Assembly (NCBI GenBank): GCA_945890645.1
Contig: CAMDCV010000027.1
Location: forward strand, 1 to 59,669
Direction: 5' to 3'
Length of the DNA stretch: 59,669 nt
From: Akkermansia muciniphila
GTDB lineage: Bacteria > Verrucomicrobiota > Verrucomicrobiia > Verrucomicrobiales > Akkermansiaceae
A model generated the notes under the pieces. The model worked only from the letters and a program-made list of their open reading frames with translations. It did not search any database and was not told the origin of the DNA. This document shows positions 1 through 59,669 of the stretch, in pieces (the first letter of the stretch is position 1; every line of letters starts with the position of its first letter). Both the position numbers and the translations under genes were made by a program.

Positions 1-974
1 AGAGCCAAATTCGAGCTCCCCTGCGCTGATGCAGCTTGCAGAACAAACTTTGTGGGATTGAAAGTCGCGCTACCCCACGTGATCGCTCCGATGTTAAAGG
101 TGGCACCGTTGTTACCGTTCATGGAAAAACCACTTTCTCCACCAGTGATCCGAATTTCGTTAGCGCCAGAACCTTGCACGCGAGTCAAACCTCCTGTCCA
201 GTAGCTCTCCAAAATACCTCCGTTGATGTTGATGTTGCTGTTGACGCTCAAGTTTCCAGTAGTTCCGTTAAACATGAGAACGCCACCGTTGATGTTGGTG
301 TCTCCGCTGTAGGTGTGGGCGTATGCAGTACCACCTCCGCCAAGAACAACGCGCCCGTTGCTTACTGTGAGACCACCAGCTCCAGTGATGACACTTGCTG
401 TGTTTTCCAAACTTACAGTGCCCGTTCCATCAAATGTCAACCGATTGCCATTGAGGTTCACACCACCCTTCACCGAGAGTGCCGCAGCTGCGTTGTTCGT
501 CCAATTCTGGGCGTTGTTGAGGATGATGGGTGTAGTAGTGATGCTGACCGCTCCCTGAGCAGTAGAACCGTAGGCGAACTGGTTCATGGTGATGCCGCCC
601 GAGTCCGCAGTGCCGTCGCCCAGAGTGATCGAAGTGCCACCGGAGAGGGTGGTGGTGCCTTGCGCCCGGAAGTTCAGGCTATTGGCAACTTGCGTGCCGC
701 TGACGGTGACCACGTAGTTGGCGTTGCCGCTAGAACCACTTGGTCCAGCGACAAAGAAGAGATTATCTGTATTAGCGGTCGCAGTTGAAAATGTTCCAGA
801 ACCACCGGTCGAATTGGTATTCCAGAAGTTACTTGTGCCCCATGTACCCGTTGGAGTGCCTCCTGCGCCGGCAGTGGCAGCATTGCTATCCCAGTAGAGT
901 TGGCCATGCGCAAAATTGGCGGCTAAGACTATGCTAGAGATTAAAATAGAACGGGGGAAAAACTTGGCTTTCAT
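1..974 (-). CDS. Large secreted beta-strand-repeat surface protein (N-terminal part, runs off the left edge)
   Basis: The reading frame is open from an ATG at 974 to the window edge, about 324 codons, with no stop; the C-terminus lies outside. It begins with a signal peptide (MKAKFFPRSILISSIVLAAN..AHGQ) and then LYWDSNAA, the usual opening of verrucomicrobial autotransporter-associated repeat proteins. The body is Gly/Thr/Asn/Ser-rich with repeat signatures such as GGLTVSNGRVVLGGGG and HTYSGDTNINGGVLMFNGTT. Members of this family form long parallel beta-helices at the cell surface. It lies head-to-tail upstream-to-downstream with the similar protein at 1275-5753, which has its own terminator in between, so the two are probably separate units. 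Function is inferred from repeat type only; adhesin or stalk-like surface protein is the best guess. Confidence 0.85.
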   Translation of the reverse strand, partial: MKAKFFPRSILISSIVLAANFAHGQLYWDSNAATAGAGGTPTGTWGTSNFWNTNSTGGSGTFSTATANTDNLFFVAGPSGSSGNANYVVTVSGTQVANSLNFRAQGTTTLSGGTSITLGDGTADSGGITMNQFAYGSTAQGAVSITTTPIILNNAQNWTNNAAAALSVKGGVNLNGNRLTFDGTGTVSLENTASVITGAGGLTVSNGRVVLGGGGTAYAHTYSGDTNINGGVLMFNGTTGNLSVNSNININGGILESYWTGGLTRVQGSGANEIRITGGESGFSMNGNNGATFNIGAITWGSATFNPTKFVLQAASAQGSSNLA

Positions 975-1274: not shown

Positions 1275-2020
1275 TTATTCGGTCACAGTCACGTTCAGAC
1301 GACCGAATTTCTTCGGATCGGCACCTTTCGGTACGGTCAGGGTGATGGTGTCGAAGCCTACGGGGCTATTTTCTGTCACGACCACTCCAGCATCGGAGGT
1401 GCCGGTGGTGGTGCCGACGGTGTAGCTCGTGGGCCAACCGGTGAGGGTCGTACCAACTTCGATTTCGCAACCGGTGATTCCATCGATCGAGCTGCGCTTG
1501 CGCTCAAAAGTGAAGATCATCTCGGTGGCGGTCGTGGTGACTTCCGGCAGTTTGCTGAGGTCGTTGGTGCCGACATCACCGCCGAGCAGGAACTCGATGG
1601 CATTGTTCACACCGTCGCCATCCTTGTCTTGGCCAGGAGCGCTGCTGATGGCATTGGTGAGGGCCCAGGTTTGATAGGCATTGCGCACGGTGATGGTGGT
1701 GTCATCGAGCAAAGCCGGATCAGTGTCGAGGTCGTTGCCGGCCACGTCTTCGAGCACGGTCAAGGCATTGATGCGTAGGACCAGCGTGCCGGGGCTGGTG
1801 GGGGTAACGACCACAGAGAATACGCCGGGCGTAGTTTCGGTAACCGAGTCGATCGTAGCGACCGCGGTGCCGTTGTTGCCAAAATCAGCCGTGGTTACGG
1901 TGGCATCGTTCATGTCCTCGTCGAAGGTCACGGTGTAAGTGACCGCGGCTCCGATGTTAACCGGACCACCGCTGACGTTGTCCGTGATGCTGGTGAGTGT
2001 CGGAGGAGTGGTATCGCCGC
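1275..2020 (-). repeat. C-terminal cassette, copy A (about 745 bp)
   Basis: By eye this segment is about 95% identical to 58227-58972, in the same orientation 57 kb away. It encodes the Ig-like domain, the DxDGDGxxNxxE motif and the C-terminal domain ending FGRLNVTVTE. Identity stops abruptly upstream near the TPPTLTSITDN segment, where the two proteins become unrelated in sequence. A decayed third copy of the extreme 3' end lies at 6230-6400. Confidence 0.9.
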
Positions 2021-5000
2021 CACCGATACCCGTCACGACGAGTTCGACATTGTTACCAGTGATTTGCAAGGCGCCAGTGCCAGCACCTACTGCCCCTGTG
2101 AGGTTGGCAGGATTGGTGTCCAAGGTGCCGGTGAGAGCAGTGCTTTCAATGAGGGTGTAAGTCCCATTTTCCAGTCCGCTGATGGGATTGAAGGAGAAGT
2201 CAGCGAAACCAAGCACGTTGCTACCGATGTTGACCGAAGCGGCGATGATTTTATCGCTAGCGGAGATGGGGCCCATGTCCATGTTGATGGTTCCGGCACC
2301 ACCTGCCATGGCGGAGATATTGAGCAATCCAGTAAAGGACTGGGGGTCTACAGTGTTGCCGGGGGCGAGCTTGGCACCTGCGGCGACAGTGACGGTGCCG
2401 CCGATGGTGCCGCTACCACCAAGGGTGCTGGTGCCATTAACGGCCACGGTACCGGTGCCGAGTTTATCGCCATTGAGGATGAGGGTGCCCGCGCTGATGG
2501 TGGTGGCTCCCCCCGTGCCTACAGGGCCACCCAGGGTCCAAGTACCGTTGCCGGTTTTAGTGAAAATATGACTGACGGGGCAGGGCAGTCCCCAAACAAG
2601 TTCTCCATTGCCAGTACCTCCCAAGGTAATGGTGGTGGGGCCAGCTTGGCCGAAGTTTGAGAAAGTAACGGGGCTAGTGAATTTCAGCAGGCCAGAGCCG
2701 TTGTTCTCGATGGTGCGGCTGGTGGTGCTGCCAAAATGGAAATTGATCACGCGGTCCGAGGTTTCGCCGAGTCCCGTGTAGCGGAGTGTGGCAGGGCCTT
2801 GGATGGCGGCTGGACCACCGATGTCGATGGTTCCGTTAAAAACAGTCTTGGGTGCTCCGAGGGAGCTGCTGGTAGCGGGAGTAGTGACAGTGCCCATACC
2901 GGTGACCATGCTGCCACTGACGACGCTGTTGAGCGAGGAAACGGACACGACACCAGCACCTGCGGTGGTCGCCGGGGCAATGGAAGTCCTGCCGGTGTAG
3001 GTATTGTTGCCGCTCAAGGTCAGAGTGCCGGAATAGGTCTTCATGAGTGTTCCCTCGCCACTGATAGTGCCGCTGAGGGTCTGGTCGGCATTCGTGGAAA
3101 TGTAGAGCATGGCTCCCGCACCTATGAATATGTTGCCAGCGTAATCGCCGGCAGCTCCACCGAGTTTGGCTCCGTTCACGGTGTTGTTTGTGCCGATGCG
3201 TAGGGTTCCGGCGTTGATGATGGTATTTCCTGTGTAGGTGCTAACGCCGTTGAGAACCAAGGTTCCTTGGGTGCTGTAGTTGTTGTTCGCGCCTGACCCG
3301 CCGTTTCCGGATTTGACCAAAGTGGTGGCTCCTGTGCCCGCTGAGTCGTTGGTGATCGGGACACTGATGGTCATGGTTTGCGCGCCCGTAGTGAGGTAGA
3401 GGTTGCCACCGCCGGATGGCGTGCGCACGGTGCCCGTACCGCTGATGGTGAAAGTACCCGTGGCCGTGCTTCCAGTCAGGATGCCACGTGTCTCCAGGTG
3501 GTTGGCGCCGAGGGCCAGCGTGTTGGCAGCTGCGGACGAGTCTCGCACGGTATTGAGGGTGCGCGTATCCGTAAGCGTCACAGCTCCGTTGATGTTCACA
3601 TTTCCAGCCGTGGTCCATGTGGTTTCATCATTGTTCGCGGTGATGCCAGCGGCCGTCACATAATCGCTGTTGTAAATGGCGTAGTCCGTCTGGATGTTGG
3701 AGGTGGTGCCGGTGGTAGCCCAGGGACCGACGATGTTGCCGCCGCTGGTGCTGCCTGCGGCGGTGATAACGATCATGTTCTTGTTGCCGGAGGCCTGCGG
3801 AGCAGTTCCAGCGGCGGAGAATGTTACGGATGCAGTGCCGCTGGGAGTTAAGCCGCCGAGGGTGAGGGTTTGGGCGCTGGTGCCGGTGCCGGTCTGGTTG
3901 GTGAGGAGGCTGATGTTGAGTTGGCCGCTGGATTGGGTGATGGCACCCAAGGTTTCCGCGTAGGTGATGTCATTGCCGGAGGTGTTTTCCCAGAGGATGC
4001 TGCCGCCACGGGTGACGGTGATGGCGTTGCTGTTGACACGATCCACAGCGGTTTGGGAAGTGGTGTTGGTCATGCGCAGGATGCCGTCATCTTCCAAAGC
4101 AATGCCGCTGGTATTAAGGAGGCTGCCTAAGCCACCACTGAGGGTAAGGGTGCCGCTGGCGGTGTTGAGGACGGGGTTATTGCCCGAGGTTGCATTACCG
4201 CCGCGGATGGTGGTGCTGCCGGTGTAGGTATTTTCCCCCTGGAGAACCTGAGTGCCCAAGCCGGATTTGATCAATGAAACGCTGGAGGTGCCGTCCTCCA
4301 TGATGCCACCGTATGTCAGCGAACCGGAGAGTGGATTGAGGGTGATAGTGGTGACGCCATCATACCCCGAAGAAATGACTTCTAACAGATTGAATGATCC
4401 AGTCAAACCACCGAATGAGGGAGTGGTGACGCCGGTGAGGGTCACAGTGCCAAGGCCGGAAGTGTTCAAAGCACTGTTCCGGAGAGCGTTGGCATTGGTC
4501 ACATTGAGTATGCCGTCACTCACGAGGGTGGCACCGCTGAAAGTGTTGGATGCACTTAGGGTCAATGTGCCGGTTCCTTGCTTCGTGAGTGAGCCAGTTC
4601 CGCTGATGACATTTCCATAGGACTGAGCGGAATCACTATTAAAGATCAATGAGGAGTTGTTGACGATGTTGCTGCTGGTGGCGATGGAAGCTTGGACTTC
4701 CAGGGCGCCTGCGCTAACGAGAGTCGCTCCAGAATAGGTATTGGTTTGGTCGAGAGTCAATGTGTTGCTGCCGAGCTTCGTCAAGCCGAGCACGTGGTTG
4801 CCACTGTTGGTGTTGGCGATGACGGAATCGAATAGGAGGCTGCCTCCGGTGGTGTCGATGCCGACGGAGGAGCCGGACATAAAGCCGTTGGTGGCGGAAT
4901 CCGATAAGTCGAGAATCGTTTCAATGTCATCTTTGGTGAATTGCCCCGCACCGCCGACGTTGAAGGCGAGTGTAGCACCGTTGCCGACGATGATGTTGTC

Positions 5001-5753
5001 CTTGGACCATGCAGCGGCGGATTGATTATTGTAGAGAGAAACCTGATTGCTGACGCGGAGGGTGCCCCCAAGAACGCGGGTGCTGCCGGTGTAGGTGTTG
5101 GTGTTGGTCAGAATCACGCTAGCGCCGGGCAAATTGCTGACGGCGAGTGAGACATTGCCGCCGCCTGCGCCATTGCTGATCGCACCGTTGAGTGTAAGGT
5201 TGCCAGAGGTAGTCGCCGCGATGAGTGCCTGTGTACCCGAGGTAGCGGATCCGGTAATGGCAGACAGAGTGAGTGTATTGGTAGTAAAGTTGCCAAGGAC
5301 AACAGACTTTGCCGCCGAGTTGAGTATGATCGGCGTATTGATGGGTTGATTGGCAAAGGTAAGATTGAATACACCAGAACCACCCCCGACATTGCCGAGA
5401 TTGATGCCTGTGCCGCCACTGATAGTGTAAATTTGATTGGTGACGTTGCCGAACGTGATGCTGCGGGCGGACTGCGTGGCATCTACAGTGATGGTTCCTG
5501 CAGTCATGGCAGTGGCGGCGAAGATCACGTCATCAACATTGGTGGTAGTGACAGCGCTAGTAGCGACGTTGCCAGCGGCAACCGTAGTCCAGTTAGAAGC
5601 TGAAGCAGCCGCCCATGTGCCGGTGGCTGCGGCGTTGGATGCCGTAACACCATTGATGTCCCAGTAGTAGGTGACGGCGTGAAGAGCAGAAGATGTTAAC
5701 AGCGCGCTGCTAGCGAGAAAGATAAATGTGCGAAGTGAGGATTTGAATTTCAT
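1275..5753 (-). CDS. Giant secreted autotransporter-associated beta-strand repeat protein with Ig-like, TSP3-like and conserved C-terminal domains
   Basis: 1492 aa. A signal peptide (residues 1-26, ending ALHA) is followed by VTYYWDINGV. Residues about 30-1150 carry repeats of the PATR type; clear copies include LTKLGSNTLTLDQTNTYSGA, LTKQGTGTLTLSASNTFSGA and LMKTYSGTLTLSGNNTYTGR. About residues 1245-1350 form a bacterial Ig-like domain (TVTFDEDMNDATVT). A calcium-binding DKDGDGVNNAIEF motif follows near 1385, then about 100 residues ending FGRLNVTVTE. There is no C-terminal beta-barrel, so it is not a classical self-transporting type V protein. The terminal domain more likely serves as a sorting or anchoring signal (inference). 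The last 245 residues are nearly identical to those of the gene at 58227. A beta-helical surface fibre or adhesin is the likely role. Confidence 0.9.
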   Translation of the reverse strand: MKFKSSLRTFIFLASSALLTSSALHAVTYYWDINGVTASNAAATGTWAAASASNWTTVAAGNVATSAVTTTNVDDVIFAATAMTAGTITVDATQSARSITFGNVTNQIYTISGGTGINLGNVGGGSGVFNLTFANQPINTPIILNSAAKSVVLGNFTTNTLTLSAITGSATSGTQALIAATTSGNLTLNGAISNGAGGGNVSLAVSNLPGASVILTNTNTYTGSTRVLGGTLRVSNQVSLYNNQSAAAWSKDNIIVGNGATLAFNVGGAGQFTKDDIETILDLSDSATNGFMSGSSVGIDTTGGSLLFDSVIANTNSGNHVLGLTKLGSNTLTLDQTNTYSGATLVSAGALEVQASIATSSNIVNNSSLIFNSDSAQSYGNVISGTGSLTKQGTGTLTLSASNTFSGATLVSDGILNVTNANALRNSALNTSGLGTVTLTGVTTPSFGGLTGSFNLLEVISSGYDGVTTITLNPLSGSLTYGGIMEDGTSSVSLIKSGLGTQVLQGENTYTGSTTIRGGNATSGNNPVLNTASGTLTLSGGLGSLLNTSGIALEDDGILRMTNTTSQTAVDRVNSNAITVTRGGSILWENTSGNDITYAETLGAITQSSGQLNISLLTNQTGTGTSAQTLTLGGLTPSGTASVTFSAAGTAPQASGNKNMIVITAAGSTSGGNIVGPWATTGTTSNIQTDYAIYNSDYVTAAGITANNDETTWTTAGNVNINGAVTLTDTRTLNTVRDSSAAANTLALGANHLETRGILTGSTATGTFTISGTGTVRTPSGGGNLYLTTGAQTMTISVPITNDSAGTGATTLVKSGNGGSGANNNYSTQGTLVLNGVSTYTGNTIINAGTLRIGTNNTVNGAKLGGAAGDYAGNIFIGAGAMLYISTNADQTLSGTISGEGTLMKTYSGTLTLSGNNTYTGRTSIAPATTAGAGVVSVSSLNSVVSGSMVTGMGTVTTPATSSSLGAPKTVFNGTIDIGGPAAIQGPATLRYTGLGETSDRVINFHFGSTTSRTIENNGSGLLKFTSPVTFSNFGQAGPTTITLGGTGNGELVWGLPCPVSHIFTKTGNGTWTLGGPVGTGGATTISAGTLILNGDKLGTGTVAVNGTSTLGGSGTIGGTVTVAAGAKLAPGNTVDPQSFTGLLNISAMAGGAGTINMDMGPISASDKIIAASVNIGSNVLGFADFSFNPISGLENGTYTLIESTALTGTLDTNPANLTGAVGAGTGALQITGNNVELVVTGIGGGDTTPPTLTSITDNVSGGPVNIGAAVTYTVTFDEDMNDATVTTADFGNNGTAVATIDSVTETTPGVFSVVVTPTSPGTLVLRINALTVLEDVAGNDLDTDPALLDDTTITVRNAYQTWALTNAISSAPGQDKDGDGVNNAIEFLLGGDVGTNDLSKLPEVTTTATEMIFTFERKRSSIDGITGCEIEVGTTLTGWPTSYTVGTTTGTSDAGVVVTENSPVGFDTITLTVPKGADPKKFGRLNVTVTE

Positions 5754-6229: not shown

Positions 6230-6400
6230 TTATTCCGTCACCGTCACGTTCAGACGGGCGAATTTCTTCGGATCAGCGCCTTTGGCAACGGTCAGGGTGA
6301 TGGTGTCAAAGCCTACGGGGCTGTTTTCTGTCACAACTACGCCGGTATCGGAGTTGGCCGTGGTCGCTCCGACGGTCTAGCACGTGGGCCAGCCAGTGAG
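6230..6400 (-). pseudogene. Remnant of the C-terminal cassette of a large surface protein
   Basis: On the minus strand this reads ...TGWPT C stop TVGATTANSDTG..., continuing to ARLNVTVTE and a TAA, i.e. the last ~55 codons of the same cassette found at 1275 and 58227. An in-frame TAG replaces the Tyr codon of the intact TSYTVGTTT segment. Upstream homology stops abruptly near 6400, and the following ~135 bp up to 6537 show nothing recognisable. The matching terminator at 6157-6192 survives. It is the stump of a deleted third member of the family. Confidence 0.85.
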
Positions 6401-12272: not shown

Positions 12273-12283
12273 CGTGCCTTTCG

Positions 12284-12314
12284 CCGAAGGCCTTGGACTG
12301 CGGTGGGCATCACC
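12284..12314 (+). repeat. Dispersed 31-bp repeat, copy 1
   Basis: A 31-bp sequence beginning CCGAAGGCCTTGGACTGCGG recurs with one mismatch at 49603-49633, and a related inverted segment lies at 49718-49742. Both sites are intergenic, just past genes. It behaves like a small dispersed REP-type element. Confidence 0.7.
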
Positions 12315-12385
12315 TCTTTCGTTAGGTTTCAGATAAGCCAATGAGGTCAATAACTCATACTCGGAAAACCGCAGAGGGTGTGCCC

Positions 12386-17781: not shown

Positions 17782-17863
17782 GCTCGGATGGCGGAATTGG
17801 TAGACGCGCTAGACTAAGGATCTAGTAGGGAAACCTGTGGGTGTTCGAGTCACCTTTCGAGCA
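17782..17863 (+). tRNA. tRNA-Leu (AAG)
   Basis: A class II tRNA. Acceptor GCTCGGA pairs with TTCGAGC, the D arm reads GCGGAATTGGTAGACGC, and the anticodon stem is CTAGA/TCTAG around loop CTAAGGA, so positions 34-36 are AAG with G37. A long variable arm and T arm GGGTG/TTCGAGT/CACCT follow. The discriminator is A and CCA is not encoded. Bacteria normally use GAG here, so A34 is unusual. The 3' part, from the anticodon loop onward, is duplicated at 20944, marking an integration site. Confidence 0.9.
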
Positions 17864-17868
17864 CTTCT
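17813..17868 (+). repeat. attL-like 56-bp direct repeat (3' part of tRNA-Leu)
   Basis: Identical over 56 bp to 20944-20999, starting in the anticodon loop (ACTAAGG) and ending just past the tRNA 3' end. Similarity continues imperfectly through the following terminator hairpin. This is the classic signature of tyrosine-recombinase integration into a tRNA gene. Confidence 0.9.
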
Positions 17869-17884
17869 TTTCGGAGAAGTAGAA

Positions 17885-17917
17885 AATCCCGAGGCTTAAC
17901 CGCCTCGGGATTTTTGT
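17885..17917 (+). terminator. Terminator of tRNA-Leu
   Basis: AATCCCGAGGC and GCCTCGGGATT form a perfect stem followed by a T-run. The same hairpin recurs after the right-hand repeat at 21013. Confidence 0.9.
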
Positions 17918-20943: not shown

Positions 20944-20999
20944 ACTAAGGATCTAGTAGGGAAACCTGTGGGTGTTCGAGTCACCTTTCGAGCACTTCT
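20944..20999 (+). repeat. attR-like 56-bp direct repeat
   Basis: Exact copy of 17813-17868 (3' part of tRNA-Leu from the anticodon loop). No acceptor 5' half or D arm precedes it, so it is not a functional tRNA. Confidence 0.9.
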
Positions 21000-21012
21000 C
21001 CTAGAGAAGTAA

Positions 21013-21047
21013 GAATCCCGAGGCTTCACCGCCTCGGGATTTTTTGT
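21013..21047 (+). terminator. Duplicated tRNA-Leu terminator beyond attR
   Basis: AATCCCGAGGC, 6-nt loop, GCCTCGGGATT and a T-run; nearly the same hairpin as at 17885. This was presumably the original terminator of the tRNA before integration. Confidence 0.85.
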
Positions 21048-24298: not shown

Positions 24299-26008
24299 AT
24301 GAGCCTTGCTCTCGAAGAACCCGTCAATCAAGAGTTGATTGACTTGATCGATTCCAAATTCCGCGAATTCCGCGAAGGATCGATCCTCAAAGGAACCATC
24401 CTGGAAATCCGCCCCCAGGTCGTCATTGTCGATATCGGCTATAAGTCCGAAGGCGCCATCGCCTCCAACGAATTCGAAGACGATGATATTGAAGTCGGTG
24501 ACGAAGTCGAAGTCCTCCTCGAAAAACTGGAAAACGACGAAGGCATGGTCGTGCTTTCGAAAGAGAAAGCCGCCCACAAGCAAAACTGGGACAAGATCGT
24601 CAAAGTGTTCCAAGACGGTGGCCTCGTTCGCGGCAAGGTCAAAGCAGCAGTCAAAGGCGGTCTCACCGTCAACGTCGGCGTGGAAGCTTTCCTTCCCGGC
24701 TCACAAGTGGACATCATCCCACCGAAAGATCTCAACGAATACATCGGCAAGATCTACGAATTCAAAATCGTCAAGGTCAACGACGAACGCAAGAACGTCG
24801 TTCTCTCCCGCCGCGAGGTCATCGAGGCCGAGCGCAGCGAGCAACGCCAGCGTTTCCTCGGCACAGTTTCGGCGAACGACAAAGTCATCGGCACCGTCAA
24901 AAACATCACCGACTTCGGCGCATTCGTCGACCTCGAAGGCATGGACGGCTTGCTCCACATCACCGACATGTCATGGGGTCGCATCAATCACCCAAGTGAA
25001 ATGCTGCACATCGGTCAATCGCTCGAAGTGCTCATCCTTGAAGTCGACCGCGACAAAGAGCGCGTTTCGCTCGGCCTCAAACAAATGTCGGAAAATCCAT
25101 GGGCCGACATCGAAGCTCGCTTCCCAATCGGCACACGCGTTGGTGGCAAGATCACCAAGCTGCTCCCTTACGGTGCATTCTGCGAAATCGAAAAAGGCGT
25201 CGAAGGACTCATTCACGTTTCCGAACTCAGCTGGGTCAAGCGCATCACTCGTCCGAGCGATGTTCTTTCCATCGGTCAGGAAATCGAAGCGGTCGTTCTC
25301 GGCATCAGCATCGAAGAACAGAAAATCTCGCTCGGTGTGCGTCAGCTCGACGCCAACCCATGGGATGCGATCGAAACTCGCTTCCCGATCGGCGCGACCG
25401 TCAAAGGTCCCGTGCGCAACCTCACCGCTTACGGTGCGTTTGTGGAACTGGAAGAAGGCATCGATGGTATGATCCACGTGTCCGACATGTCTTGGACCCG
25501 CAAGATCAATCATCCATCCGAAGTGCTCAAAAAAGGCGACGAGATCGAAGCCATCGTGCTTTCCATCGACAAAGCCAACCAGCGCGTTTCGCTCGGCGTT
25601 AAGCAGCTCGAGGACGATCCATGGAGCCTCATCGACAAGCGCTTCAAAGTGGGCGACATCGTCAAGGGCAAGGTCGCCAAGATTGCAAGCTTTGGTGCTT
25701 TCGTCAGCCTCGAAGGCGACATCGACGGCCTCATCCACATTTCGCAATTGAGCGAAGACCACGTGGAGAAAGTCAAAGACGTGATCAAAGTCGGCGACGA
25801 CGTGGAAGCACGCGTGATCAAAGTGGACAAAGTCGAGCGCCGTATCGGTCTCTCGATCAAGGCCCTCAGCTACAGCGAAGACCAACTCAAGAAAGAAAGC
25901 GCCAGCTTCGAAAGCCTGCGTCCCTCCAGCGAGATGGTCGGCCTCGAGCACGCCTTCAACTTGGCCTCGTCCGCTGTCGAAGAGTGGAGCCCCAGCGAAG
26001 AGAACTAA
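24299..26008 (+). CDS. rpsA: 30S ribosomal protein S1
   Basis: 569 aa. Six S1 (OB-fold) domains follow one another: domain 1 from about residue 25, domain 2 GGLTVNVGVEAFLPGSQVDI, domain 3 TDFGAFVDLEGMDGLLHITD, domain 4 LPYGAFCEIEKGVEGLIHVS, domain 5 TAYGAFVELEEGIDGMIHVS and domain 6 ASFGAFVSLEGDIDGLIHIS. S1 brings mRNAs, especially those without Shine-Dalgarno sequences, to the ribosome, which matters in this SD-poor genome. The last ~18 codons, stop and terminator are duplicated at 27425. Confidence 0.97.
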   Translation: MSLALEEPVNQELIDLIDSKFREFREGSILKGTILEIRPQVVIVDIGYKSEGAIASNEFEDDDIEVGDEVEVLLEKLENDEGMVVLSKEKAAHKQNWDKIVKVFQDGGLVRGKVKAAVKGGLTVNVGVEAFLPGSQVDIIPPKDLNEYIGKIYEFKIVKVNDERKNVVLSRREVIEAERSEQRQRFLGTVSANDKVIGTVKNITDFGAFVDLEGMDGLLHITDMSWGRINHPSEMLHIGQSLEVLILEVDRDKERVSLGLKQMSENPWADIEARFPIGTRVGGKITKLLPYGAFCEIEKGVEGLIHVSELSWVKRITRPSDVLSIGQEIEAVVLGISIEEQKISLGVRQLDANPWDAIETRFPIGATVKGPVRNLTAYGAFVELEEGIDGMIHVSDMSWTRKINHPSEVLKKGDEIEAIVLSIDKANQRVSLGVKQLEDDPWSLIDKRFKVGDIVKGKVAKIASFGAFVSLEGDIDGLIHISQLSEDHVEKVKDVIKVGDDVEARVIKVDKVERRIGLSIKALSYSEDQLKKESASFESLRPSSEMVGLEHAFNLASSAVEEWSPSEEN

Positions 26009-26061
26009 TTCCTACGAACATAGTATTTCAAAAGGTCGGAGAGCAATCTCCGGCCTTTTTT
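25953..26061 (+). repeat. rpsA 3' end and terminator, copy 1 (intact gene)
   Basis: This segment recurs at 27425-27536 in the same orientation, offset by 1472 bp. Over the coding part and the spacer about 7 of 88 positions differ; three of the four coding differences are silent third-position changes. Confidence 0.9.
26033..26061 (+). terminator. rpsA Rho-independent terminator
   Basis: GGTCGGAGA and TCTCCGGCC around a GCAA loop, followed by T6, 25 nt past the stop codon. Confidence 0.9.
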
Positions 26062-26158
26062 CGTGGCGGCAATCATCAGAAATCATAGAGGGCTGAAAAA
26101 TCTATGGATTGCCAAGCGTTTATCAATAAGCCATGTTGTTACCACTCAAGAACTAAGA

Positions 26159-27412
26159 ATGTCGAAATACTACATTACCTACTGCTTAATCATAGTGGCT
26201 TTCTTGGTCTTCCACGCCGATTCAGATAGTCAGCCCCAGAGCGCTTTAGTGCCGCCAGTAGTGGCACCGCTCACTGCTGAACAAAATTTGGCGAACCAAG
26301 ATGCCATTCAAATCCAGCAGTTCCTCGACCCGCAGTTGGCGGATGGCTTTGACTTTCCTGTCGGCGATGCGAATGCAAAAGGCTCCTATCAAGCACCTAA
26401 CGGGAAAAAATACAACGGCTGGTATATTGCCACAAAATTTGCCGAAGAGTATTCCCTAGGCATTCATACTGGTGAGGACTGGAACGGCAATGGCGGCGGT
26501 GACACGGATCTAGGACAGCCAGTTTACTCGATCGGACATGGACGCGTCATCTATGCCCAGATGGCAAGTGGGCCCTATGGCAACATCGTAGTGATCGAAC
26601 ACTATTATTTGGAAAATGGTCAACGCAAGCGCATCTTTTCACAATACGATCACCTTCATGAAATGCGTGTTGTCAAAGATCAACTGGTAAAACGTCGTGA
26701 CATCATTGGCACGATTGGCAAGGGCCATCGTGATGTATATCCCGCACATCTCCACTTTGAAATTCGCAAAGATGAAATGGCCAAATTCACTCCAGAATTT
26801 TGGCCATCGAGCAATGGTTGGACGACCGAGATGGTAAAAAAGAACTACGAAGCTCCCTCAGACTTCATCAACAATCGCCGTAAGCTAACCCACCCCGCAA
26901 CTGCGGCAAAAATCTTCTGGGCCATCAAAAGTAAGCAGCAATTGCTCCACATCAAAAAGGGGCAAGTGATCAAAACCTATGAAGTGGCACTTAGTCAAAA
27001 ACCGTTAGGTCACAAACAGGCAGAAGGTGATCTCAAAATGCCTGAAGGCCAGTATCACATACTCAGCAAAGCCAAAGGCCCATTCGAAGGTGAAGAATGG
27101 CATAAGTTTTTAGGCAACGCGTGGATACGACTCGATTATCCAAACAGTTACGATGCACGTCTGGCATTTGCTGAAAAGCGCATTACCAAAACGGTGATGG
27201 ACAGCATCATCGCGGCACAACAGCGTAACATCATGCCACCACAAAAAACCGCACTCGGCGGGGGAATCGGCATTCACGGCTGGGCCGCAGGCGGCTGGGA
27301 TCCAGCGGCAAATCGGGCACTCACTTGGGGCTGCCTGAGTCTCAATCATGATGATTTGCTAGAAGTATATGCCGAGGCCAGCAACGGAACCCCTGTGATT
27401 ATTTCCCCATAA
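26159..27412 (+). CDS. Bifunctional cell-wall enzyme: LytM/M23 metallopeptidase plus YkuD L,D-transpeptidase
   Basis: 417 aa. An N-terminal signal or anchor (ITYCLIIVAFLVFHADSD) precedes an M23 domain at about residues 70-235. Its zinc ligands are visible in GIHTGEDWNG (H and D) and PAHLHFEIRK (HxH). A linker leads to a YkuD domain at about residues 245-415, with GGIGIHGWAAGG and the catalytic Cys in TWGCLSLNHDDL. M23 enzymes cut peptide cross-links; YkuD enzymes form 3-3 cross-links or attach proteins to peptidoglycan, so one chain could cut and rejoin stem peptides. The gene is richer in A and T than its neighbours and lies exactly between two copies of the rpsA 3' end. Confidence 0.88.
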   Translation: MSKYYITYCLIIVAFLVFHADSDSQPQSALVPPVVAPLTAEQNLANQDAIQIQQFLDPQLADGFDFPVGDANAKGSYQAPNGKKYNGWYIATKFAEEYSLGIHTGEDWNGNGGGDTDLGQPVYSIGHGRVIYAQMASGPYGNIVVIEHYYLENGQRKRIFSQYDHLHEMRVVKDQLVKRRDIIGTIGKGHRDVYPAHLHFEIRKDEMAKFTPEFWPSSNGWTTEMVKKNYEAPSDFINNRRKLTHPATAAKIFWAIKSKQQLLHIKKGQVIKTYEVALSQKPLGHKQAEGDLKMPEGQYHILSKAKGPFEGEEWHKFLGNAWIRLDYPNSYDARLAFAEKRITKTVMDSIIAAQQRNIMPPQKTALGGGIGIHGWAAGGWDPAANRALTWGCLSLNHDDLLEVYAEASNGTPVIISP

Positions 27413-27424
27413 TCCATAGCATGC

Positions 27425-27536
27425 CCTTCAACTTAGCCTCGTCCGCTGTTGAAGAATGGAGCCCCAGCAAAGAGAACTAATTCCTACGAGCGTAGTATTT
27501 CAAAAAGGTCGGGGATAAATTCCGGGCCGTTTTTTG
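27425..27536 (+). repeat. rpsA 3' end and terminator, copy 2 (orphan)
   Basis: Matches 25953-26061: the last codons of rpsA with stop TAA, the CCTACGARCRTAGTATTTCAAAA spacer and a weakened terminator hairpin (GGTCGGGGA/TTCCGGGCC, one mismatch) with T6. The rest of rpsA does not precede it. It looks like the displaced original gene end after an integration. Confidence 0.88.
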
Positions 27537-35903: not shown

Positions 35904-37805
35904 TCAACGAATTCCACGCAGTAACAACTCCGCGTTATTTTGGGTAGCTTTAAGATTTTTCATCAGCGTTTCGATCGCTTCTCCGTAAGGCAGTTGCGCA
36001 AGCTGGCGCCGAATATCGAGCACCTTGGCGAATTCATCGGGATGATAGAGGCGGTCATCGTTGCGAGTGCCCGATTGCGGGATGTGAATCGCTGGGTAAA
36101 TACGGCGCTCGGAAAGTTCGCGGTCGAGTCGTATCTCCATATTGCCCGTGCCTTTGAATTCCTCGAAAATCACATCGTCCATGCGCGATTCGGTCTCGAT
36201 CAAAGCAGTAGCAAGAATAGTCAATGAGCCACCTTCCTCGACGTTGCGCGCCGCTCCGAAAAACTTCCGCGATTTCTGCAAAGCGATGGGCGAAACGCCG
36301 CCCGATCCAATCGGACCCGACTGATTGGCCGCATTGTGCCCGCGCGCGAGTCGAGTCAAGGAATCGAGCAACAAAATCACGTCTCTTCCTTGCTCCACCA
36401 AGCGTTTTGCGCGGTCGAGCACTATGTCAGCCACTTGTGCGTGGCGTTTCGGCGTTTCGTCAAATGTCGAGGCATACACGGTGCAGCCGACAGTTTCCTC
36501 GAAGTCCGTCACTTCCTCTGGACGTTCATCGAGCAATAACACAATCAATTCCGCACTGGGGTGATTGGTTTTAATCGCTTTGGCAATTTGTTTTAATAAA
36601 ATGGTCTTACCACCCCGCGGGGGGGCAACGATCAGCGCGCGCTGACCGAGGCCAAGCGGCGCAATGAGGTCGACCAAGCGCACACTGAGAAATTCAGGTC
36701 CTAAGCCTTCTAAATAAACGCGACGGTCAGGGAAAAGCGGTGTCAACTTATCAAAATCCGTCGGCACTTCCCATTGCGAGACTTCCTTGCCCTCGATCTC
36801 CAATATCGCGGCAGTGGTGAGAAATTTATCTTTCTCCTGCGGTGCACGCACACTGAGTTTGACACGCTGGCCCGATTGCAGACCGTGATTGCGAATGAAA
36901 GCAAGTGGCACATGAATATCATCCTGCGAACTGCGGAAACTGCGGGCTGGGTCACGCAGCATCGCGTAGTTGTCCTTGCCAAATTCCAGTACGCCTTCGC
37001 AGGTAAGCTCGACTCCTTCCGAAGCATAAAAGTGCAGCAGCGCATGGATCAACTGGCTTTTGTTTGCATGCGCCACTTGCAGACCGGGAATGGCATCGGC
37101 CAAGTCGTGCAATTCTGCTAATGGCTTTTTGCGAAAATCGTTGATGTAAATCGCGACCGGCAACACGACGGGCATCGCGTGAATCATCGCATGATCCACA
37201 GTCGTGATATCTTGCGACTCCAGAAAACGAGCCAGCTGCGTGCGCAAGCTGCCGAGCGGACCTTCATTCCACAACACCACGTCTGCTCGCAACATTTTCT
37301 CCGCCACGGGCATTTGCGCGGCGATGATCGAGTGAATCATCGCGTCATCCAAACGTGTGCGATTGCGCAAGCGGCGCACTTGGGTATCAAAGCTAGAAGC
37401 GACCAAAAGGGACTTTTCCTGGCCAAAATTGAAGTCATTTTCAAACAACAAGGGCACGTCGGCGATGAATAATGGCGATTGATTTGATTGTTGCGCAAGC
37501 TCGAGCGATGCCAGGCACTCTTGGCGGATCAACGGGTGGATGATGCCTTCAAGCTGCGCGCGCGCCTCATCATCGGCAAAGACTTTTTTGCGTAAAAAAT
37601 CGCGATCGAGGCAGTTTTTAGGGGCGAAAATCGCTTCCTCTCCAAACAAGGCACGACATTGCTCCACCACGGCAGGATCGCTGTGGAGTCTTCGGGTGGC
37701 AGCATCACAATCAAAGAGTGTTACGGCGGGGCATAATTCGCGCAGCAATCGGCATACCGTGGATTTGCCGCTGGCGATGCCGCCGGTGAGGGCGAAAATT
37801 CGCAT
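35904..37805 (-). CDS. Fusion of dephospho-CoA kinase (CoaE) with transcription termination factor Rho
   Basis: 633 aa from ATG 37805. Residues 1-200 are a complete CoaE: P-loop [19 protein letters not shown] and [18 protein letters not shown]. It phosphorylates dephospho-CoA, the last step of CoA synthesis. Residues about 211-633 are a full Rho: N-terminal and cold-shock-like RNA-binding domains ([18 protein letters not shown]), Walker A APPRGGKT (394-401), Walker B LLLDSLTR near 478-485, and secondary RNA-binding/R-loop elements ([19 protein letters not shown]). Both halves have normal family length and intact motifs, with no stop or frameshift at the joint. Met206 and Met211 could allow separate Rho translation. 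TTGCCA, 17 nt, CAAGAT ends 6 nt before the ATG. Confidence 0.93.
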
Positions 37806-37811
37806 GCGCCG

Positions 37812-37840
37812 ATCTTGGCGAGTCGCCCGCGCACTGGCAA
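37812..37840 (-). promoter_or_regulatory. Putative leaderless promoter of the coaE-rho fusion
   Basis: On the minus strand TTGCCA, 17 nt, CAAGAT, then 6 nt to the ATG at 37805. The -10 element is imperfect, but the geometry matches those before gltX and the MazG-like gene. Confidence 0.45.
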
Positions 37841-37886
37841 GCCGTAAGATCAAAGATTCACAGAAAATTTTTCCACCTGAGAAAAC

Positions 37887-49565: not shown

Positions 49566-49602
49566 CGAAAGGGATACTACACGGGTGATGCGATTTTTTC
49601 AG

Positions 49603-49742
49603 CCGAAGGCCTTGGACTGCGGTGAGCATCACCGCTTTCCGGTCGGTAAAGCAAATGAGTAACTACGACAGTCTCTGTTAGATCATGAACGAGCGAAGAA
49701 AAGCTGTGATTCTCGGAGCAGTCCAAGGCGGCTGGCACCGCT
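49603..49742. repeat. Dispersed 31-bp repeat copy 2, with a related inverted segment
   Basis: 49603-49633 matches 12284-12314 with one mismatch. At 49718-49742 GCAGTCCAAGGCGGCTGGCA reads as a diverged inverted form, so the pair could fold into a large hairpin around the 85 bp between them. This 180-bp intergenic stretch holds nothing else I can identify. Confidence 0.65.
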
Positions 49743-58190: not shown

Positions 58191-58226
58191 CCTTGAAAGG
58201 CTAGGAGGCATGACGCCGCCGTCACC

Positions 58227-58972
58227 TTATTCGGTCACTGTGACGTTCAGACGGCCGAATTTCTTCGGATCAGCGCCTTTCGGTACGGTCAGGGTGATGG
58301 TGTCGAAACCGCTCGGGCTGTTTTCTGTCACGACTACGCCGGTATCGGAGTTGGCCGTGGTGGTGCCGACGGTGTAGCTCGTGGGCCAACCGGTGAGGGT
58401 GGTGCCGACTTCGATCTCCAAACCGGTGATGCCATCGATCGAACTGCGTTTGCGCTCGAAGGTGAAGATCATGTCGGTAGCGGTCGTGTTGACTTCCGGC
58501 AGTTTGCTCAGGTCGTTGGTGCCGACATCGCCGCCGAGCAGGAACTCGATGGCGTTGTTCACGCCGTCGCCGTCTTTGTCTTGGCCAGGAGCGCTGCTGA
58601 TGGCATTAGTGAGGGCCCAGGTTTGATAGGCATTGCGCACGGTGATGGTGGTGTCATCGAGCAGAGCCGGATCGGTATCGAGGTCGTTGCCGGCCACGTC
58701 TTCGAGCACGGCCAAGGCATTGATGCGCAGTTGCAGAGTTCCAGGGCTGGTGGGGGTAGCGACCACAGAGAATACGCCGGGCGTAGTTTCGGTAACCGAG
58801 TCGATGCTAGCGACCGCGGTGCCGTTGTTGCCAAAATCGGCAGTTGTAACGGTGGCGTCGTTCATGTCCTCGTCGAAGGTCACGGTGTAAGTGACCGCGG
58901 CTCCGATGTTGACCGGACCACCGCTGACGTTGTCCGTGATGCTGGTGAGTGTGGGAGGGGTAACATCGCCGC
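58227..58972 (-). repeat. C-terminal cassette, copy B
   Basis: Nearly identical (about 95% by eye) to 1275-2020. The two encode the same 245-residue Ig/TSP3/C-terminal block with roughly ten to fifteen substitutions (for example GCEIE versus GLEIE, NSPVG versus NSPSG). Confidence 0.9.
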
Positions 58973-59669
58973 CACCTTCAACGTAGAGCACGATATCATT
59001 GCCACCGATGAGGGCATTCGTGGCGGAATCGCCGATGTAGCTGATTTTCAAGTCTGCACCCCCATAGGTGCCAACCACTGCGTCCTGCGCAAGTCCGGCG
59101 AAAGTGCCCGTGACCGCGTCACCGCCATCGTTGATGACGATGAAATACTTTTGTCCGCCGACCAGAGTACCCGTCACGTTGGGCGCGAGGGTCGCGGTGG
59201 CATTGATCGTCACGGTTCCAGTCACGATGGCTTGATCGGAAGTGGCCGAGGTTCCGTCCACTTCCACCGCGTAGCTGCCGGTGCTGCCTAAGGCGAGATT
59301 GCCGACATCGAGGGAATCAATGCTGTTGCCGGGCGACAGAGTGCCGTTCACCGTCACCGGACCGATGATGGTTCCGCTGCCAGCCAGGGTGTTACTCGCG
59401 CTGACCGTCACGCCGGTCGCAGTCAGGCTACCGTTGACCACAAGTTGGTTGCCGGTCTCGGTGCCTGCGCCGGAGCCAATTGTCAGGGCGCCGACATTGC
59501 TTACTACGGCGTCAGTGCCGACGGTCAGGATGTTGTTGTTCGATGTGGCGCTGGCGTTGTTGGTGGAGCCGATCGTGACGCTCTGGGCACCGGCATTCCA
59601 TGTGGAACCTGTGCCGGAAATCGTCATTGTATTGGAATTGGACTCAGTGCTGGCGGCGTTGGCTCGACC
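58227..59669 (-). CDS. Large secreted surface protein (C-terminal part, runs off the right edge)
   Basis: 480 codons are open to the window edge with no stop, so the N-terminus lies outside. The visible N-terminal part is a Gly/Thr/Asn-rich beta-helix (TISGTGSTWNAGAQSVTIGS; ASNTLAGSGTIIGPVTVNGT). About residues 230-480 are the Ig-like, DKDGDGVNNAIEF and C-terminal domain block ending FGRLNVTVTE shared with the gene at 1275. The repeat region is unrelated in detail to that protein, so the same anchor is attached to different fibres. Confidence 0.88.
   Translation of the reverse strand, partial: GRANAASTESNSNTMTISGTGSTWNAGAQSVTIGSTNNASATSNNNILTVGTDAVVSNVGALTIGSGAGTETGNQLVVNGSLTATGVTVSASNTLAGSGTIIGPVTVNGTLSPGNSIDSLDVGNLALGSTGSYAVEVDGTSATSDQAIVTGTVTINATATLAPNVTGTLVGGQKYFIVINDGGDAVTGTFAGLAQDAVVGTYGGADLKISYIGDSATNALIGGNDIVLYVEGGGDVTPPTLTSITDNVSGGPVNIGAAVTYTVTFDEDMNDATVTTADFGNNGTAVASIDSVTETTPGVFSVVATPTSPGTLQLRINALAVLEDVAGNDLDTDPALLDDTTITVRNAYQTWALTNAISSAPGQDKDGDGVNNAIEFLLGGDVGTNDLSKLPEVNTTATDMIFTFERKRSSIDGITGLEIEVGTTLTGWPTSYTVGTTTANSDTGVVVTENSPSGFDTITLTVPKGADPKKFGRLNVTVTE

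Follow-up and report, generated by a model that had tools for sequence, protein, structure and literature searches.

A C-terminal block shared by otherwise different genes for large proteins in Verrucomicrobiota: a candidate module for sorting exported proteins

C-terminal sorting tags are a known kind of protein feature. The type IX secretion CTDs of the Bacteroidota are folded, strand-rich domains that form the extreme C-terminus of exported enzymes and adhesins of many kinds, and PATR repeats, which recur in the proteins discussed below, form beta-helices. Apart from PEP-CTERM, the placement of very large proteins and polysaccharide enzymes at the surface of Verrucomicrobiota is, to our knowledge, poorly known. 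The portion of the original account of PEP-CTERM on which we draw (Haft, 2006, PMC1569441) states that in 87% of its proteins the tail is followed by less than ten residues. For Akkermansia muciniphila, the relevant part of a published survey (PMC4960237) counts nine proteins of the outer membrane that have an autotransporter barrel domain, and 23 for which PEP-CTERM is predicted, so that barrels do occur in the phylum. We describe here a terminal domain, hereafter CTD, that appears from its sequence to have no fitting Pfam or NCBIfam model, and that is not described among the papers listed by searches of open PubMed Central.

The window, by which we mean the whole stretch of 59,669 bp that was analysed, is one entire contig (C27) of a genome of 3.82 Mb in 66 contigs that is 97.55% complete. 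The first-pass annotation had described a near-identical cassette close to both ends of the window, and the duplication is real: when the window was compared with itself by BLAST, 1272-2024 matched 58224-58976 in the same orientation with 91.5% identity over 755 columns (BLAST gave the E-value as 0.0). The identity of about 95% claimed for the pair holds for the protein, where 234 of 246 residues are identical (95%) between the two blocks, A and C, and does not hold for the DNA (91.5%), the ungapped comparison of A (1275-2020) with C (58227-58972) giving 64 differences in 746 bases. Each block closes a large gene of the minus strand, A that at 1275-5753 and C that at 58227-59669. The features that concern us are the following.

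1275..5753, minus strand: gene A, 1492 aa, with a signal-like N-terminus, a PATR/beta-strand-repeat passenger (PF12951, E=5.6e-30; TIGR02601, E=9e-33) and the C-terminal block
1275..2015, minus strand: block A, an Ig-like domain (about 111 aa), the CTD (about 135 aa) and the stop codon
1278..1682, minus strand: CTD of A, comprising the loop DKDGDGVNNAIE, a strand-rich domain and the end FGRLNVTVTE
3..974, minus strand: gene B, 5' part, cut by the contig end; the remainder is C53:15033-12712 and ends in block B
6230..6400, minus strand: stub F, the last ~57 codons of the block and the sequence behind it, with no open gene before; the match crosses one TAG
58227..59669, minus strand: gene C, its last 480 aa only, the frame running off the end of the contig
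58227..58967, minus strand: block C, an Ig-like domain, the CTD and the stop codon

A search of the genome for all proteins ending in the block had been suggested at the outset, and it brought to light five copies, A to E, and a degraded stub of 171 bp. At the DNA level there were 11 matches, five of them full or nearly full length (A at window 1275, B at C53:12712, C at window 58227, D at C10:88583 and E at C25:24283) and six shorter, stub F among them; the protein search gave 17. Identity to block A is 100, 95, 91, 88 and 79% for the DNA of A, B, C, D and E, and 97, 95, 93 and 78% for the proteins of B to E. The first 149 bp of the window are the last 149 bp of contig C53, and the gene that begins at 974 on the minus strand, once joined to C53, reads through without a break for 1048 aa and closes with copy B; the A and B blocks therefore sit in adjacent genes, about 2.7 kb apart. 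Blocks A and B disagree in 41 of 746 bases (94.5% identity), and their likeness extends 70 bp beyond the stop codon (817 columns, 93.3%). Exact overlaps of contig ends were seen for C27/C53 (149 bp), C53/C54 (149 bp, inverted) and C17/C43 (96 bp), and the first and last of these joins both fall inside PATR genes.

Once the block is removed, little is left in common. Five of the ten pairs of passengers (A-C, B-C, B-D, C-D and C-E) have no BLASTP match at E <= 1e-3, four of these five involving passenger C, which the contig end cuts to 234 aa; this bears out, for A and C, the earlier statement that the upstream parts differ. The remaining five pairs can be aligned locally, at 31-50% identity over 36-226 columns, and between A and B one piece of 167 columns could be aligned, at 37%. 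The edge of the block is sharp and common to the copies, each of which begins behind a linker rich in glycine (SG in D, GG in E and GGG in the other three) and finishes a little past the stop codon. What these otherwise different genes share is the block alone, and the block has been exchanged among genes.

The other ends of PATR proteins in the same genome are informative in this respect. PF12951 marks 70 stretches in 19 frames. Thirteen of these 19 PATR genes end in a CTD, counting B and the C43/C17 gene, each pieced together across identical contig ends (149 and 96 bp, respectively); one ends in a weak CTD (C23, E 0.007), three in PEP-CTERM-like tails (C1, 540 aa; C40, 1038 aa; and C56, 864 aa, the last recognised by eye and outside the seven PF07589 matches of the genome) and one in neither (C1, 3519 aa), and one is cut (C16). 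A CTD together with a PEP-CTERM-like tail was seen in none of the 19, and none of the seven genome frames matching PF07589 is a CTD frame. Exosortase (PF09721) has one match in the genome, on C24 (E=6.4e-49), and the autotransporter barrel PF03797 has none at E <= 0.001, in a search in which two of 14 controls matched.

Gene B gives the clearest case of a swap. Three genes of its own genome, on C23, on C1 and next to it on C53, resemble its passenger, with 53-63% identity over 306-559 columns. The C23 gene carries the weak CTD; the C1 gene of 3519 aa has a 51%-identical Ig-like stretch and no terminal CTD, which weighs against a sorting role; and the C53 neighbour matches the passenger at 63% over 306 columns, with only 71 of 135 CTD residues identical, when CTD B and CTD A agree at 129 of 135. 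The part of passenger B that lies on C53 found matches at 1e-20 in four of 19 genomes, its own included. In one congener (G008), a gene retains the end of B's passenger (134 of 224 residues agree, without exception over the 17 that lead up to the junction, GYTLDYAYEGNKIALVS), followed by a differing CTD (34 of 125 identical) and lacking the Ig domain; a second gene of this congener, with 48% identity to this passenger over 275 columns, has a PEP-CTERM-like tail, recognised by eye. On kindred passengers the CTD has been replaced by other tails, and B is, on these comparisons, a natural chimera whose passenger kin bear different ends. The idea of a portable module put forward by the first-pass annotation is thus strongly supported, by passengers that are unrelated or only locally similar, by the sharp edge, by chimera B and by the differing tails on kindred passengers.

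A structural model of the 246-aa block reached a mean pLDDT of 71.7 and a pTM of 0.49. Its Ig part (about residues 1-111, with pLDDT 52-87 per ten residues) matched FdeC with Z 9.9 (93 residues, 2.3 A), InvE with 9.5 and invasin with 9.4, and because human filamin A ties with these adhesin domains at 9.5, the part is best called Ig-like and not specifically of the invasin type; no Pfam Ig model matched it in block A. It may act as a spacer, given that some CTD proteins, such as the G008 gene described above, are without it. Behind the Ig part the model has a helix, a low-confidence D-x-D-x-D-G loop and a strand-rich domain whose last strand occupies 237-244 of the 246 residues; pLDDT is below 50 at residues 121-150, and from 161 onwards seven of nine ten-residue blocks lie at 85-95, the last two at 75 and 78. 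The strands may form a sandwich. These statements on the fold of the CTD rest on the 246-aa model, since prediction of the CTD alone, made without an alignment, had a mean pLDDT of 36.6. Fold searches are dominated by the Ig part: Foldseek returned 1806 matches to the block model at E <= 10 and none at E <= 0.001, PorU stood at rank 14 (E 5.7e-3) among Fab fragments, and the VIA rows were led by the Ig part.

Nine positions are invariant in an alignment of 31 CTDs (D19, D23, G24, V25, N27, L80, W83, F126 and R128), and the three aspartates and the last glycine of the D-x-D-x-D-G loop are invariant or at least 90% conserved across the 31 rows. The thrombospondin-type models TSP_3 and TSP3_bac matched two (best E 0.11) and one (best E 0.052) of 26 members, respectively, and PDB sequences gave no match to the CTD profile at E <= 1. 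At this same threshold nine Pfam families were matched by 26 members and eight NCBIfam families by 31, among which there was no convincing model for the CTD family and no type IX tail family. Three of these families were considered and rejected, their matches being weak and partial: CFSR of Pfam (six of 26 members, best E 1.4e-4, scattered over parts of members) and, of NCBIfam, RPT_S_cricet (three of 31, best E 9.8e-4) and the Amuc_1099 family (two of 31, best E 7.8e-4).

The CTD profile matched the source genome 45 times at E <= 0.01 and 19 times at E <= 1e-12, stub F included, although ten rows of the profile come from this genome and match by construction. Within the phylum the CTD is present in 82 of the 194 genomes searched (its own counted), a proportion that weighs against the sorting reading, and a 135-aa CTD query found matches in 40 of 57 relatives, again counting its own genome. 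In a scan of the genomes of 84,980 species there were at least 28 CTD loci; among the matches listed, 27 are verrucomicrobial by title and one belongs to the Pontiellaceae. An origin in a mobile element or phage was considered and rejected: tblastn of the CTD against 72,556 records of plasmids and 50,697 of phages gave no match at E <= 1e-5; two proteins of the window had no match in PHROG. In a tree of 89 CTDs, which has few columns and many unresolved forks, A to E form one clade (100/99), other CTDs of the same genome, for example those on C17 and C33, group with those of congeners (100/94 and 100/88), and three more, one from C3 and a pair from C4, cluster among themselves alone (94/96). 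CTDs that are 76-86% alike as DNA sit on differing passengers in two other genomes (G015 and G021) as well. Separately, the CTDs of L224 (G008) and L203 (G021), which come from two genera, show 92% DNA identity over 396 nt; no other of the 16 between-genome pairs listed is as high, and either horizontal transfer or unusual conservation may lie behind it.

In frames drawn by their similarity to the CTD, the domain ends within ten residues of the stop codon in 87 of 89 closed frames (13 genomes, near full-length CTD match). Across four partly overlapping sets of such frames it is terminal in 20/21 (own genome), 20/21 (congeners and others), 20/21 (phylum) and 30/33 (named loci), one 3'-open frame in each of the congener and named-loci sets being kept in the denominator and not scored as terminal; the non-terminal CTDs with a stop codon are followed by 11, 174, 12 and 24 residues, which weighs against the sorting reading. 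Signal-like N-termini, recognised by a home-made rule, occur in 14/17, 15/19, 15/20 and 18/25 of the 5'-complete frames of these sets. The same rule fires in 2/11 named cytoplasmic genes of the window and in 10/34 of all its frames of at least 250 aa, and the counts may be taken as support, not proof, for export of CTD proteins. A Pfam scan of 14 chosen carriers found a SASA esterase, a GH10, an M60 peptidase, an AXE1-like, a pectate-lyase-like and a reprolysin-like domain in one each and sulfatase domains in two, with no match at 0.001 in two and PATR and/or Ig-type domains only in the rest. The export or anchoring function that had been proposed for the block is favoured indirectly, by the C-terminal position, the signal-like N-termini and the alternation with PEP-CTERM-like tails; sorting itself is what we infer from them.

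Divergence among the copies is appreciable. Synonymous divergence (dS) of the block is 0.185 for A-B, 0.194 for B-C, 0.302 for A-C, 0.45-0.47 for A, B and C with D (0.47 from A) and 0.62-0.76 with E (0.67 from A), and dN ranges from 0.018 to 0.15, dN/dS being about 0.1 for A and C; from these ranges of dS and dN it follows that the copies are under purifying selection and were not duplicated at the last moment. Gene conversion or recent duplication had been suggested as the source of the pair: sharing is indeed limited to the block, but the copies are not very recent (dS 0.19 for A-B, 0.30 for A-C), and tests of exchange within the block are at most suggestive. Where E is one of the two copies compared (four pairs), dS is 0.97-1.23 for the Ig half as against 0.42-0.51 for the CTD half (Fisher tests on rounded counts for three of the pairs gave 0.001-0.012), which is suggestive of separate histories of E's two halves. 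Runs tests on triplets of A to E gave low P for several (30 tests, uncorrected for number), but many of these have E, whose Ig half is simply more diverged, as a parent, and a rate that varies along the block can look like mosaicism in such tests; with E as the candidate mosaic all six gave P 0.12-0.91, without a signal of mosaicism. For B between A and C the test gave P 0.02, and A and B have in common an exact run of 124 bp (chance 0.02). Homologous exchange may partly homogenise the copies, and one-way exchange inside the block is possible. A scan of 900-1300 for promoters and terminators gave nothing exceeding shuffles.

A deletion of the 57 kb between the same-orientation copies, also raised by the first-pass annotation, is implausible as a switch because housekeeping genes lie between A and C and would go with it: the genes read there by Pfam are those for gyrB, ribosomal protein S1, gltX, rho, alr and rsmH, presumably essential, and there are two tRNA genes besides.

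Some other features of the window are recorded here for their own sake. At 35904-37853 (minus strand) a 649-aa CoaE-Rho fusion has CoaE (dephospho-CoA kinase) at residues 19-198, followed by the RNA-binding and ATPase domains of Rho. At 17782-17915 lie the 3' part of a tRNA-Leu gene, itself inside an exact repeat of 56 nt, and a hairpin that follows the gene; both recur 3.13 kb downstream at 20944-21044, and the two copies flank a DUF4870/Coa1 gene and resemble an old insertion at a tRNA gene. An element of ~43 bp occurs on three contigs (window 12279-12320 and 49597-49639, L035 7396-7441 and L038 7995-8038), two copies lying ~70 bp downstream of CTD genes, and is possibly a dispersed repeat family. 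A repeat of 119 columns (87%) at 25947-26061 and 27418-27535 flanks an M23/YkuD cell-wall gene (26063-27412).

We consider it probable, judging from sequence, that the block is an exchangeable C-terminal module of Verrucomicrobiota that serves to sort or anchor exported proteins. It would consist of an Ig-like spacer and the terminal CTD, swapped among genes for large exported proteins; a signal-like N-terminus would take the CTD protein through Sec export, the PATR passenger would come to be displayed outside the cell, and the CTD would be read by a putative machine of the envelope, so that the protein is sorted or anchored at the surface in the way that PEP-CTERM would act on sister proteins. 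The copies would have spread by ectopic duplication of the block, with partial homogenisation by homologous exchange. Export, surface sorting, the sorting machine and the direction of transfer are what we infer in this proposal. More tentatively, and with rather less than even confidence, we suggest that the CTD marks the substrates of a new outer-membrane sorting or secretion pathway beside exosortase, and that chimeras would switch proteins between the two.

The alternative to be taken most seriously, which we nevertheless regard as somewhat unlikely, is that the block caps the end of the protein in a structural or ligand-binding role, probably as a calcium-binding loop and strand-rich domain on an Ig spacer, and is used for adhesion or substrate binding and shuffled as extracellular domains are. 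The conserved D-x-D-x-D-G loop fits such a role, as do the several carriers that are polysaccharide-active or protease-like enzymes and the likeness of the Ig part to the folds of FdeC, InvE and invasin (Z 9.9, 9.5 and 9.4), although filamin scores as highly (9.5); moreover, a terminal ligand-binding domain would likewise be exported and C-terminal, which weighs against the sorting reading. Binding domains, however, are found at many positions in proteins, whereas the CTD is terminal in nearly all closed frames (87/89), and PEP-CTERM-like tails replace it on kindred passengers. A CTD with a dual role, in sorting and in binding, would be compatible with the sequence. That the copies instead form a system of surface variation, recombining so as to swap exposed fibres or silence genes and leaving stub F as a by-product, seems to us improbable: the same orientation of the copies, the stub, the 124-bp exact run in the adjacent genes A and B and the low-P runs tests on several triplets (with the reservation on their number given above) are in its favour, yet dS of 0.19-0.76 between copies is far from rapid switching, the Pfam scan found no recombinase among 24 frames of the window, and deletion between A and C would lose housekeeping genes.

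Two further explanations concern the origin of the pattern itself. Duplication of whole genes followed by fast divergence of the passengers would suit the adjacent position of A and B, the 70 bp beyond the stop that they have in common and the PATR stretches common to some passengers, but at a block dS of 0.19 whole genes would be expected still to align, and those of A and B do so over only the 167 columns at 37%; the nearest kin of passenger B, moreover, bear other tails, and we hold this explanation to be very improbable. An artefact of assembly or binning, that is a chimera, has the slightest claim of all: the assembly is in 66 contigs and several contig ends fall inside these genes, yet genes A, D and E are complete frames within contigs, and the copies cannot be the same reads used twice because B and C differ from A at 41 and 64 of 746 bases, and D and E at more. 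The other genomes in which CTDs 76-86% alike sit on differing passengers (G015 and G021) tell the same way. The reading of the block as an exchangeable sorting or anchoring module is the one that we carry forward. It matters because the CTD family points to candidate surface proteins, as many as dozens in a genome, because its phylogenetic profile could reveal the machine that would read it, and because the natural chimeras are ready-made test pairs.

Several described systems offer points of comparison. Passenger repeats of the PATR/TIGR02601 kind are common to type Va autotransporters and gene A, the 3' part of gene C matching neither model; the autotransporters differ in having the PF03797 barrel, which has no match in this genome, the C-terminus being a CTD or a PEP-CTERM-like tail. 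The CTDs of type IX secretion offer an analogy to the CTD described here, itself terminal, strand-rich in the model and probably folded. SprA of the type IX translocon, the sole CTD machine sought, had no match in the genome, in a search in which none of 14 controls matched either. MYXO-CTERM with myxosortase and GlyGly-CTERM with rhombosortase are, in the portions of their descriptions used here, likewise C-terminal tags on many surface proteins, MYXO-CTERM being found throughout its phylum; but the MYXO-CTERM tag is short and tripartite, contains an invariant cysteine and is sorted by an intramembrane protease, and the CTD is a long domain. A further parallel is PEP-CTERM/exosortase (PF07589, TIGR02595), which, in the part of its description drawn on here (PMC1569441), shares with the CTD a C-terminal place, many copies and diverse signal-peptide proteins that are otherwise dissimilar. 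Gene A ends in FGRLNVTVTE, and both blocks of the window lie outside the seven PF07589 matches of the genome. PEP-CTERM is a short motif followed by a membrane helix and a basic cluster, whereas the CTD has about 135 residues, is probably folded and ends without helix or basic cluster; and the two kinds of tail, CTD and PEP-CTERM-like, alternate on PATR passengers within this one genome.
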